The notes under the pieces were generated by a model, which was given only the letters and a program-made list of their open reading frames with translations, made no database searches and was not told where the DNA came from. From Natronococcus occultus SP4 (GTDB lineage: Archaea > Halobacteriota > Halobacteria > Halobacteriales > Natrialbaceae), in contig NC_019974.1 of assembly GCF_000328685.1 (NCBI RefSeq), positions 3,153,001 to 3,217,000 on the forward strand: DNA of 64,000 nucleotides, written 5' to 3'. Positions 17,836 through 21,893 of this stretch are shown here, one piece after another (position 1 is the first letter of the stretch; every line of letters starts with the position of its first letter). Position numbers and translations under genes: made by a program.

Positions 17836-19029
17836 TTACTCTCGAGGCATCCGTAACGTCAGCAGCGTTCCGGCGCCGACGATCAGCGCCAGCAGGAGAT
17901 AACCGGCGTCGAAGTACCCCCGCTCGGCGATCACGCCGAAGACGACCGGGCCCGACGCCCCCAGCACCGAGGCGCTCGAGCGGATCACGCCCAGACCCGT
18001 CCCCTGGATCTCCGCAGGGATGATCTCGGCGAGGTACGACTGGGTGATCGCGCCCGAGCCGAGCATCGTGCTCGCGAGGACGGTGACCCCGACGAGCCCG
18101 ACGAAGCCGTCGACGAACGGCAACAGCGCGAGACCGACGACCGATCCCAGCAGGATCAGCGGAAGCGAGCCCCGGAGCCCGACTCGGTCGTAGGCCATCC
18201 CGGCGATCGGTTTGACGACGACGCCGACCGCAAAGAACAGTCCGAACAGGACGCCGGCGACCGTCGAGGACAGCCCCTTCTGTTCGACGAGGTAGGTCGG
18301 GTAGAACGCCGAGAACGTCTGCCAGACGAAAATAAAGAGAAAGAGGATGACGCCCATGATCGCGAGGACGGGGCTGCGGAGCTCCCGGATCACGTACCGC
18401 AGGTTCTCGCTCGAGGCGTCGCCGTCCTCGGGGTCGGGGGCTGGCAGCGTCAGCCAGATGACGACCGCGGTAACACAGAGCAACGGAAGGACGAAACCCA
18501 GGCCGAGCCGCCAGGCGACCGCGACCGCCAGGACGCTCGCGATCGGCGGCAGCACCGTCTGGCCGACGTCGCCAGAGGCCATCGTCACACCCAGGACCCG
18601 TCCGATCCGATCGGGGTAGAGTTCCGACAGCGCGGTGATCCGGGCGATAGGATACTGCGAGTGCCCCAGACCGACCAGCGCCGTCGCCCCGAACAGGACC
18701 GCGGCGTTGGGCGCAAACAGGACGACGGTGACGCCGACGACGACCATCGAGACGCTCGCGACCAGTACGGAGCGCTCGCCGTGGCGGTCCGCCAGTATCC
18801 CCCCGGGAACCTGCCCGATCGCGTAGCCGAGCCAGATCAGCGTGACGAGCAGACCGGCCGTCGAGAGCGTGAGGTCGAACTCGGCGCTGAAGTAGGGTAG
18901 CAAGACGGGGTAGATCATCCGGGTACCGTTCAGCAATCCCCAGCCGAGCGCGATAGCCAGCAACGTCTTTCCGGTCCCGCCGGCCCACAGGCCGGCCAGC
19001 TCGCGACGGATCGAATCCAGGCGACTCAT
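17836..19029 (-). CDS. MFS transporter
   Basis: 397 residues with about 12 predicted helices. The first half carries LADRHGERSVL between helices 2 and 3, the MFS motif A. The second half has the equivalent GMAYDRVGLRGSLP. ATG at 19029 gives the usual short cytoplasmic N-terminus; upstream in-frame sequence lies in the origin-element region and is not coding. Substrate unknown; the organic-anion/sugar-phosphate or nitrate-like subfamilies share this layout. The gene stands alone. Confidence 0.87.
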   Translation of the reverse strand: MSRLDSIRRELAGLWAGGTGKTLLAIALGWGLLNGTRMIYPVLLPYFSAEFDLTLSTAGLLVTLIWLGYAIGQVPGGILADRHGERSVLVASVSMVVVGVTVVLFAPNAAVLFGATALVGLGHSQYPIARITALSELYPDRIGRVLGVTMASGDVGQTVLPPIASVLAVAVAWRLGLGFVLPLLCVTAVVIWLTLPAPDPEDGDASSENLRYVIRELRSPVLAIMGVILFLFIFVWQTFSAFYPTYLVEQKGLSSTVAGVLFGLFFAVGVVVKPIAGMAYDRVGLRGSLPLILLGSVVGLALLPFVDGFVGLVGVTVLASTMLGSGAITQSYLAEIIPAEIQGTGLGVIRSSASVLGASGPVVFGVIAERGYFDAGYLLLALIVGAGTLLTLRMPRE

Positions 19030-19298
19030 TCGGCGTGTACGTGGGAAGGCCGGTCCCGTTGAAACCGTTTTAGTTCGAGGCGGTGGTTGCTGATTTCGAG
19101 TCGAGGGAGCGGTGCGTCGAAGACGGCGTCCTCGGGTCCAGCTTCCCGTCTCCGGGAGGCTCGTCCCGTTACTCCGTTCGCCCGGGGAGGTTCGACTTCC
19201 CGCGTTTGGGATCGAGTCCTCGCGGACGAGACGCACGGCGCCCCGGGTGTGGGCGGATACCCGCAGTCGACGGATCGACTGCGTTCGAAAGGGCGACT

Positions 19299-19318
19299 CC
19301 CCGTGTGCGAAGTGAAAC
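19299..19318 (+). repeat. Putative ORB element 1
   Basis: CCCCGTGTGCGAAGTGAAAC. Same core CCCCGTGTGCGA as the other six copies, then A/G-rich GTGAAAC. Located on the stop-codon side of orc1/cdc6. Confidence 0.7.
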
Positions 19319-19355
19319 GATAACACGCACGTACGGGAGGCGGGGAACGGACCCT

Positions 19356-19375
19356 CCCCGTGTGCGAAATGAATT
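19356..19375 (+). repeat. Putative ORB element 2
   Basis: CCCCGTGTGCGAAATGAATT. Matches the consensus; same orientation as elements 1, 3 and 4. Confidence 0.72.
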
Positions 19376-19439
19376 GTCGGCACTGAAGCGGCGACTGGTC
19401 GGTTGCGGACCAACTCGAGCCGCGAATCGACTGGGGACC

Positions 19440-19459
19440 CCCCGTGTGCGAAATGAATT
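19440..19459 (+). repeat. Putative ORB element 3
   Basis: CCCCGTGTGCGAAATGAATT. Identical over 20 bases to element 2. Confidence 0.72.
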
Positions 19460-19532
19460 TCGAGCGGCGATCGCTCCGAAGACGGGGCGTCGGCGCGTCG
19501 ATCGGCAGCGAACCGACACTGCGACCCCGACT

Positions 19533-19552
19533 CCCCGTGTGCGAGATGAATT
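19533..19552 (+). repeat. Putative ORB element 4
   Basis: CCCCGTGTGCGAGATGAATT. One base differs from elements 2 and 3. It lies about 40 bases beyond the orc1/cdc6 stop codon. Confidence 0.72.
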
Positions 19553-19593
19553 CGGCGCCGCGGGAATCGGCTTCCGAGCGAGACGGATCGGGC

Positions 19594-20937
19594 TCAGTCC
19601 CCGTCAAAGAACTCGGCGATCTGGGCGTTGACGACCGATCTGAGCAGTTCGTCCTCGCCGTTGATCTCCTCGAGGCGGAAGTCCGTCCGCAGGGTCTCCG
19701 CGACGACGGCCGGATCGTCGACGAACGTGTACTCCTTGTGGACGCCGCTGCCGTACCCCCGGCCGCGTTTCTCCGAGGTGATGAAGTTGTACGTCTCGGC
19801 CTCGGTCATATAGCGGAGGTAGGAGTCACGGGATTTCTTGTCGGTCTCCAGTCGCTCGGTCAGATACTGGTAGACCCGATAGGCGACAGTGCTCGGAATC
19901 GCGTTCAGGTTCCGCTCGGCGTAGACGGGAACGATCGCAGTTGCGTACAGGGAGAGTTTCTTCTGGGTGGAGAGCCCCTGCATCTGAGTGAGGGTGCGGT
20001 CGCGCTCGGCCTCCTGCTGGGCGTCGCGAACGTGGTCCTCGCGGACCCGCTCTTCGCCGCGTCGGTTGGCGATCTCGCCGGCCTTCCGGAAGAGGTCGAT
20101 CGCCTTCCGCGCGTCGCCGTGGTCCTGGGCGGCGAAGGCCGCGCTCAGCGGGATGATTCCGGCCTCGAGGACGCCGTCCTGGTAGGCGTCCCGTCTGCGG
20201 TCGAGGATCGCCTGGAGCTGGTTGGCGTCGTAATCGGAGAAGACGACGTCCTGAGGGTTAAAGGAGCTCTCCGCGCGGCCGTCGAGGTCCTCCATAAACC
20301 GTGGGTCGTTCGTGAGCGCGGCGACCGAGACGTGGCCGTCGATCCGACCGAGCTGTGAGGCCCGCGAGAGCTGGTACAGCAGCTTCGAGTAGGCGGGTTC
20401 GTCGTTGGGGTCGCGCTGGCGACCGACCAGGAGGTCGACCTCGTCCAGAATGATGATGACGGAGTCGAACTCCTCGCTCAACAGTGCGTACAGCCGGTTT
20501 AGCTTGCGGTCCGTCGAGACGCCGCTTTCGGGAACGCCGACCTCGACGCCGGCCGTCGTCGCGGTGTTCTCGACGAGGCGGTACACCGCCCGATCGTGGG
20601 ACTTGATCGTCTGGCAGTTGATCTGGATGACGCCGAACCGATCCCCCTGGGCCTCCGCGAGCTCGACGACCTGCTCGCAGACGGCGTTGATGATCAGGGA
20701 TTTCCCGGTCCCCGACGGACCGTACAACAGCATGTTCGGCGGACGGTTCCCCTGGAGCGCGGGCCGCAGGTAGGTGATGATGTCCTCGAGTTGCTGATCT
20801 CGGCCGACGATCCGGTCCTCGTCGATGACGGCGTCGGGGTCGAGCAGCCCACGATCCCTGAACACCGACTGCTGGACGCCATCCTGCAGCCGCCCCTTGA
20901 TCGATTCCGAAAGGGAGCGATCGTCGCCGTCGGTCAT
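19594..20937 (-). CDS. orc1/cdc6: Orc1/Cdc6 replication initiator
   Basis: Binds origin boxes and loads the MCM helicase. 447 residues. AAA+ domain with Walker A GPSGTGKS at 73-80 and Walker B IILDEVD at about 162-168; a sensor-like ALTNDPRF follows. The C-terminal winged-helix DNA-binding domain spans about 325-420 (STVAYRVYQYL, SEKRGRGYGSGVHKEY). ATG at 20937 is 24 bases from a TATA box (ATAAATAC, 20961-20968), a leaderless arrangement. It is flanked on both sides by copies of a 20-base element, as expected for an initiator gene next to its own origin. Chromosome or plasmid location cannot be decided here. Confidence 0.95.
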   Translation of the reverse strand: MTDGDDRSLSESIKGRLQDGVQQSVFRDRGLLDPDAVIDEDRIVGRDQQLEDIITYLRPALQGNRPPNMLLYGPSGTGKSLIINAVCEQVVELAEAQGDRFGVIQINCQTIKSHDRAVYRLVENTATTAGVEVGVPESGVSTDRKLNRLYALLSEEFDSVIIILDEVDLLVGRQRDPNDEPAYSKLLYQLSRASQLGRIDGHVSVAALTNDPRFMEDLDGRAESSFNPQDVVFSDYDANQLQAILDRRRDAYQDGVLEAGIIPLSAAFAAQDHGDARKAIDLFRKAGEIANRRGEERVREDHVRDAQQEAERDRTLTQMQGLSTQKKLSLYATAIVPVYAERNLNAIPSTVAYRVYQYLTERLETDKKSRDSYLRYMTEAETYNFITSEKRGRGYGSGVHKEYTFVDDPAVVAETLRTDFRLEEINGEDELLRSVVNAQIAEFFDGD

Positions 20938-20960
20938 ACCCTGTCACTCGCACTGACTTC

Positions 20961-20968
20961 ATAAATAC
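20961..20968 (-). promoter_or_regulatory. TATA box of orc1/cdc6
   Basis: The minus strand reads GTATTTAT, 24-31 bases before the ATG; this implies a leaderless transcript. Confidence 0.65.
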
Positions 20969-21179
20969 GTGACGAGTACCGCGTGCGAGAGCAACACCTT
21001 CGATATTGCCGTGGAGAGCTATCGTACGGTGAGTTGGGAACGCGAAGCCGAAAACCGTGGGCGAAGTCAAAACCGGTCACCGCGACCGACAGGACGGTCG
21101 AACCCATCCCGTTCCGGCGCCGCGAGAGGGACCGTCCCGGTCACCGCGATCAGACCGCCGTGATCGGCGAAATCGGAGT

Positions 21180-21199
21180 CCCCGTGTGCGAAGTGATTC
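21180..21199 (+). repeat. Putative ORB element 5
   Basis: CCCCGTGTGCGAAGTGATTC. Left flank of the proposed unwinding region, orientation the same as elements 1-4. Confidence 0.7.
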
Positions 21200-21246
21200 T
21201 CGCTCCCGTCCACGAGCGGGAGGACCCCCGCAGTGTAACCCCCTCC

Positions 21247-21266
21247 CCCCGTGTGCGAAATGAAAT
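21247..21266 (+). repeat. Putative ORB element 6
   Basis: CCCCGTGTGCGAAATGAAAT, preceded by a further run of C (CCCTCC). Nearest left-flank element to the AT-richer segment. Confidence 0.72.
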
Positions 21267-21419
21267 CCGCAACCGAACGGGGGTGGGGGAGGGGTGGGGT
21301 GACGCTTGGAAACCCGTTCTCGGACGAGGACGCGACGAAACTGAACGCATGGGGCGTCCTCATACAACTGAAGTCCGGAGGCGACCACGGACTCCTCTAG
21401 AAGCGATGGTTTTATCAAG

Positions 21420-21433
21420 TGTTTCTAGAAACA
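21420..21433. repeat. Perfect 14-base palindrome in the origin
   Basis: TGTTTCTAGAAACA reads the same on both strands. It sits in the AT-richest part between the inverted ORBs, next to GGTTTTATCAAG. Confidence 0.8.
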
Positions 21434-21700
21434 GTAACCGTACTGGGTTCGGGACGAGTCGAAAGAACGAGGACGTTCGGAGACCGTCCCGGAAAGCCGC
21501 CAGATCCCAAATATTTCACACCGTCTCTATCCGGGCTCCCGTCCGCGCCAGCGAGTTGAACCATCGGGTGCCGTCCTGCTGGGCGAGTCAGCTCTCCGCT
21601 CGAAAACGGACGGGCGTCGGTTCCGGCACGCAGCTCCCACTGGTCTCTCGACAGACAGTGATCCGGACACCGATCCGACCCCCCACCCCCTCTCGTCCGG

Positions 21701-21720
21701 ATTTCATTTCGCACACGGGG
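21701..21720 (-). repeat. Putative ORB element 7 (inverted)
   Basis: ATTTCATTTCGCACACGGGG on the plus strand, the exact reverse complement of element 6. It faces elements 5 and 6 across the AT-richer segment. Weaker look-alikes (CTTCGCAAACGTGGG and CTTCGCAAACGAGG) follow at about 21768-21800. Confidence 0.75.
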
Positions 21721-21893
21721 GGAGGGGGCTCCCAGTAACGGAACCGACGTTCGTCGTTCCGCGGTCGCTTCGCAAACGTGGGCGAACTTCGCAAACGAGG
21801 ACGAACGCGAGAGCTCCTCGAATCGACGGCCAAACTCGATCGGAGCGTTCGGACGCCTCCTGTCGAGCTACTCGTGGGTTCGTCGCGTCTTCG

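Follow-up and report, generated by a model that had tools for sequence, protein, structure and literature searches.

An orc1/cdc6 gene and its three classes of ORB

The stretch of DNA analyzed here, which we call the window, spans 64 kb (C1:3153001-3217000) of the 4.31-Mb N. occultus genome. It contains an orc1/cdc6 initiator gene on the reverse strand (20937..19594), assigned by profile search and by identity to relatives. The 447-residue product matches TIGR02928 with 390 bits (cut-off 181), which bears out the identity that the first-pass annotation had given to the gene. It has the AAA+ and winged-helix architecture and the length above 300 residues characteristic of orc1/cdc6 origins, including the Cdc6 lid and winged-helix domains, and the closest solved structures are the archaeal Cdc6/Orc1 proteins 2v1u and 2qby, with the C-terminal winged helix present. 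Around 16 Orc1 genes score above the family cut-off in the N. occultus genome.

A search of the whole window with a 20-base ORB sequence, allowing up to three mismatches, gives seven matches, all flanking the gene; chance expectation is a mean of 0.00, and none of 100 shuffles yielded any match. Four direct copies on the forward strand form an array behind the gene: copy 1, nearest the gene (19533..19552, one mismatch), copy 2 (19440..19459) and copy 3 (19356..19375), both without mismatch, and copy 4, the farthest (19299..19318, three mismatches). Upstream of the gene there are two further forward-strand copies, a gene-proximal one (21180..21199, three mismatches) and one at 21247..21266 (one mismatch), followed by an inverted copy on the reverse strand (21701..21720, one mismatch); the last two make up an inner pair. 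The first-pass annotation had reported exactly these seven copies, correctly placed and oriented, and its statement that the window holds no other full copy extends to the whole genome (4,314,118 bases in three contigs), in which the unmismatched 17-base core is confined to these seven places rather than scattered. When two mismatches are allowed in the core, matches appear at five scattered places elsewhere, compared with one for a reversed-pattern control. The earlier inventory is thus accurate for full copies and incomplete in one respect, having overlooked an eighth, degenerate copy at 20977-20993. Two open reading frames, 19026-19607 on the reverse strand (193 residues) and 19083-19631 on the forward strand (182 residues), span the downstream array; their translations repeat motifs like FISHTG or PRVRNE at the ORBs, and they could be misannotated as proteins.

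The inner pair encloses an AT-richer patch (21396..21450, no strand assigned) that is conserved in the alignment of Natronococcus loci and is a candidate unwinding element. The A+T content of this inner region is 39% overall and 62% in the best 50 bases. Haloarchaeal origins have been described as inverted ORBs around an AT-rich element with an adjacent initiator gene (PMC3528665). The claim that the window holds such an arrangement, here around a patch that is less AT-rich than in most relatives, is supported at the sequence level, and the arrangement recurs in many genera. The proposed check by GC skew was run and gave no flip at the locus; an oriC1-like locus is equally flat, making the measure uninformative, and we dropped skew as origin evidence after 40 sampled stretches and the window, the oriC1-like contig start included, all proved trendless. 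No rRNA operon, as found near some active origins, lies within the window.

The sites fall into three classes. Both members of the inner pair, which face each other across the intergenic region adjacent to the gene, carry a C/G-string extension, at 21239..21246 on the forward strand and at 21721..21728 on the reverse strand. The gene-proximal upstream ORB and the downstream array are core-only boxes, and the degenerate copy on the promoter side is the third class. Class statistics come from the family loci described below, leaving out one (L068) in which the reading frame is broken soon after the start. Within the 14 bases that precede the core, a CCCC motif is found at 60 of 68 inner-pair ORBs, at 6 of the 56 remaining upstream ORBs and at 8 of 147 downstream ORBs, and mean C content is higher in inner than in downstream sites in 34/34 loci. 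Within Natronococcus the C/G-string is kept on 9/12 inner-pair ORBs. As a general rule this partition was rejected, being absent from the CTATCGAT family, the next one tested (inner 1/42, downstream 2/63). At oriC1 of Haloarcula hispanica, mutation of either G-string abolishes origin function (PMC3936714); since most of the downstream copies are without the string, the array looks like a set of candidate binding sites that are not origin-competent.

The degenerate ORB (20977..20993, forward strand; 11/16 core positions) sits just upstream of a TATA-like element of the orc1 promoter (20962..20967, reverse strand; -30 from the start codon) and is a candidate operator. Its sequence is TACCGCGTGCGAGAGCA in the window and TACCGTGTGCGAGRTTA, or a close variant, in most genera. 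In 32 of 34 family loci the best match falls at -55/-56; the mean match is 12.1/16, compared with 9.6 for this stretch in reverse and 9.8 within the gene. Of the two exceptions, L084 has no good match, and in L091 the TATA element is displaced along with the site, a sign that the start codon may be wrongly placed. The position would suit a repressor and an activator equally, so the sign of any effect could be either. Neither the C/G-string partition nor the promoter-side ORB turned up in the literature searched, supplementary files aside.

Relatives of the locus on plasmids and chromosomes

The Orc1 protein is 95-97% identical to those of other Natronococcus loci and 81-86% identical to those of most other genera, and family membership has been drawn at 80% identity or more (PMC3528665). 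A protein scan of public genomes gave 67 loci, 31 of them with at least 81% identity (L063-L091, L093 and L123). Plasmid records also hold the family, the best place having 80-90% identity in 30 records and 60-80% in 3; one such relative, at 85%, lies on plasmid pHH126 of H. hispanica N601. Across the order, 78/392 sampled genomes contain the core pattern. Wu et al. (2012, PMC3528665), who describe predicted origins of the same class as that of the window, name ORBs in both flanks for about ten orc1/cdc6 genes; Natronococcus is absent from the genomes they surveyed, and the Orc1 family of the window was not found there by name, supplementary tables aside.

We scored the layout in 36 loci: the window, L063-L091, L093 (used in this count only) and five plasmid loci taken from the 33 records with at least 60% identity; L123, a partial gene match, was excluded. 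Downstream ORBs are present in all 36, in numbers from one to seven, and all 156 point in the direction of the gene-proximal upstream copies. One or more facing ORBs and two or more gene-proximal ones are found within 1.3 kb upstream in 35/36 loci, the exception being L068, with a more distant facing copy. The reversed-sequence control gave no matches in 410 kb. Two loci, L069 and L077, have the customary pair of downstream copies followed, about 1.5 kb past the gene end, by a second cluster of 4-5 ORBs, possibly reflecting an insertion that split the array.

Across six Natronococcus loci identity is 98.0% for the aligned array ORBs and 69.8% for the spacers between them, a difference which indicates that the array is under selection and is maintained rather than drifting. 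All four downstream copies are kept in five of the six loci; the exception, L065, has three, lacking copy 1, and copy 4 is kept in all six.

Inside Natronococcus the flanks of the locus are syntenic over most of the 12 kb examined, and the sources of the loci syntenic with the window are Natronococcus records and a single Natrialbaceae MAG; outside the genus the cassette alone is shared. Together with the frequent plasmid location elsewhere, this pattern makes it appear that a plasmid-type cassette entered the chromosome in the Natronococcus lineage. The gene is absent from two further Natronococcus genomes, G306 and G332, implying that the locus is dispensable; both flanking genes are missing from them as well, and we rejected them as examples of a clean empty site.

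Downstream ORBs at other haloarchaeal origins

The generality of downstream copies was surveyed at 144 Orc1 loci from 39 genomes, chosen outcome-blind among the matches listed and leaving out ten partial matches of oriC1 type. An Orc open reading frame was found at 143 loci, 141 were assayed, and 95, among them the locus in the window and two others of its family, passed the filter for upstream facing ORBs. Further ORB copies within 600 bases downstream number at least one at 51 of the 95 origins, at least two at 30 and at least three at 21; the reversed-sequence control gave 4 loci with at least one copy and 1 with at least two. Loci with two or more downstream copies occur in 14/37 protein clusters. 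The suggestion that a downstream array is less usual therefore does not hold, either for the family or for the 95 surveyed origins.

The uniform orientation seen in the family does not extend to a universal rule, which we rejected: 103 of the 130 downstream survey sites point the same way as the gene-proximal upstream copies and 27 the opposite way, and among the 20 clusters with downstream sites 13 have a same-way majority, 4 an opposite one and 3 are tied, amounting to a bias. The spacing of array copies has its mode at 38-45 bases; helical phasing was considered and dropped, a 10.5-base period fitting no better than others. At L084 the array is built of identical 45-base units, spacers included, and over 61 pairs the likeness of spacers within an array is 0.41, compared with 0.25 when shuffled. 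These repeats indicate that some arrays expanded through tandem duplication, a process that would set polarity by itself.

Several loci have other site arrangements. At L144 eight ORB-like sites lie behind orc1, four in one direction and then four in the other, which looks like a second inverted origin. L019 (G000:C1:892525-893616) has nine AACAGAGGAAA-type ORB-like repeats with a period of 41-42 bases, 343-678 bases upstream of orc1; they face three more near the gene, with none downstream, and so form an origin-side tandem array. At L026 (G000:C1:3810414-3811460) at least 16 tandem repeats of GCATCGTCATC type, mostly of 15 bases, lie 735-972 bases upstream of orc1/cdc6.

A putative initiator-control cassette

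The closest counterpart with experimental data is the oriC2-cdc6E/oriC2D locus of Haloarcula hispanica, which like the window has ORBs in both intergenic flanks and a dense array directly behind the gene. There, oriC2D comprises 11 ORBs in 722 bases, compared with 4 in ~250 bases here; the likeness is one of layout. In the account of Wu et al. (PMC3936714), oriC2D has no origin activity alone and represses oriC2, cannot be deleted while oriC2 is present, and acts in proportion to ORB number, a construct with two downstream ORBs being intermediate. The authors proposed that it titrates Cdc6E, and pointed to ORBs behind the gene at many further origins in haloarchaea; the titration idea for such an array has thus already been published for a sister system, in which function was tested by experiment, whereas the array in the window is known from its sequence. 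The window shares the defining feature of oriC2D, several cognate-type ORBs directly downstream of the initiator gene. The oriC2-cdc6E pair is described as conserved only within Haloarcula (PMC4441112), and a homolog is named in Halorubrum lacusprofundi (PMC3936714).

The F plasmid offers a more distant analogy. Its initiator gene repE lies between the origin repeats of oriS and the second array incC, the iterons of which lower copy number and cause incompatibility, and here too the initiator has a binding site in the promoter region of its own gene (PMC13028717). The initiator, the repeats and the domain of life are unrelated to those of the window, and the analogy is one of layout only.

We interpret the locus, with a probability of roughly 0.7, as an iteron-like replicator-initiator control cassette of an often plasmid-borne Orc1/Cdc6 family that has become fixed in the Natronococcus chromosome, and in which the array restrains the origin. 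The origin proper would be the pair of facing C/G-string ORBs that flank the AT-richer patch (21239-21728); the initiator gene points out of this region. The downstream array of four core-only ORBs would bind the same Orc1 and limit its amount or freedom at the origin, a negative control as for oriC2D and resembling that of the incC iterons; it may act by titration, which has a direct precedent in oriC2D (PMC3936714), or by looping. The degenerate ORB upstream of the TATA box would let Orc1 tune its own expression. More tentatively, and with less than even odds in our judgment, these parts may add up to a three-tier feedback on Orc1, in which two strong C/G-string sites serve the origin, the core-only array titrates or loops, and the weak operator is read only once the others are full, making it an independently arisen counterpart of iteron control.

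A somewhat doubtful alternative is that the origin is dormant, the cassette having been captured from a plasmid while oriC1 does the work and the ORBs being kept either for gene regulation by Orc1 still bound there or to avert the harm of residual firing. The A+T content of the inner region, 38-42% in Natronococcus and 42-63% in other genera, would be compatible with a weak or dormant copy on the chromosome, and the altered spacing between inner ORBs in the genus, the two genomes without the locus, the many other Orc1 genes, the flat skew and the existence of dormant origins in haloarchaea (PMC3528665) all point the same way. On the other side stand the gap between ORB and spacer conservation, the C/G-strings retained on most inner-pair ORBs of the genus and the near-identity of the initiator within it.

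It is improbable that the downstream ORBs act as an outward extension of an origin arm that aids assembly or helicase loading, with the gene inside a long oriented arm and no brake. The uniform orientation in the family and the same-way excess in the survey are what such an arm would produce, but they are explicable by tandem duplication without it, as the identical spacers of L084 illustrate, and polarity is a bias with opposite clusters. Most downstream sites, moreover, are without the extension required at oriC1, and oriC2D, which does not replicate autonomously, reduces the autonomous replication of oriC2 (PMC3936714). The same duplication signal could make the array a neutral by-product, a reading that we consider very improbable in view of the strong conservation of ORBs over spacers and the downstream copy in every scored family locus.

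Additional boxes downstream of an initiator gene are no rarity, and those of the window probably work as a brake, like the one demonstrated in a related species. The locus is, as judged from its sequence, a further example of a known origin type with an informative anatomy, in which the C/G-string classes and the promoter-side box appear to be new. It bears on how archaea with multiple origins and plasmids keep each initiator on its own origin and correctly dosed. The widespread family provides a natural series of array sizes, from 1 to 7 in an otherwise constant layout, and a candidate operator, making initiator titration and self-control directly testable; if true, the three-tier circuit would be an archaeal, Orc1-based form of iteron copy-number control, here captured by a chromosome. 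In the CTATCGAT-type cluster, L186 and L195 have three downstream ORBs oriented opposite to those of their relatives and offer natural test cases for polarity.
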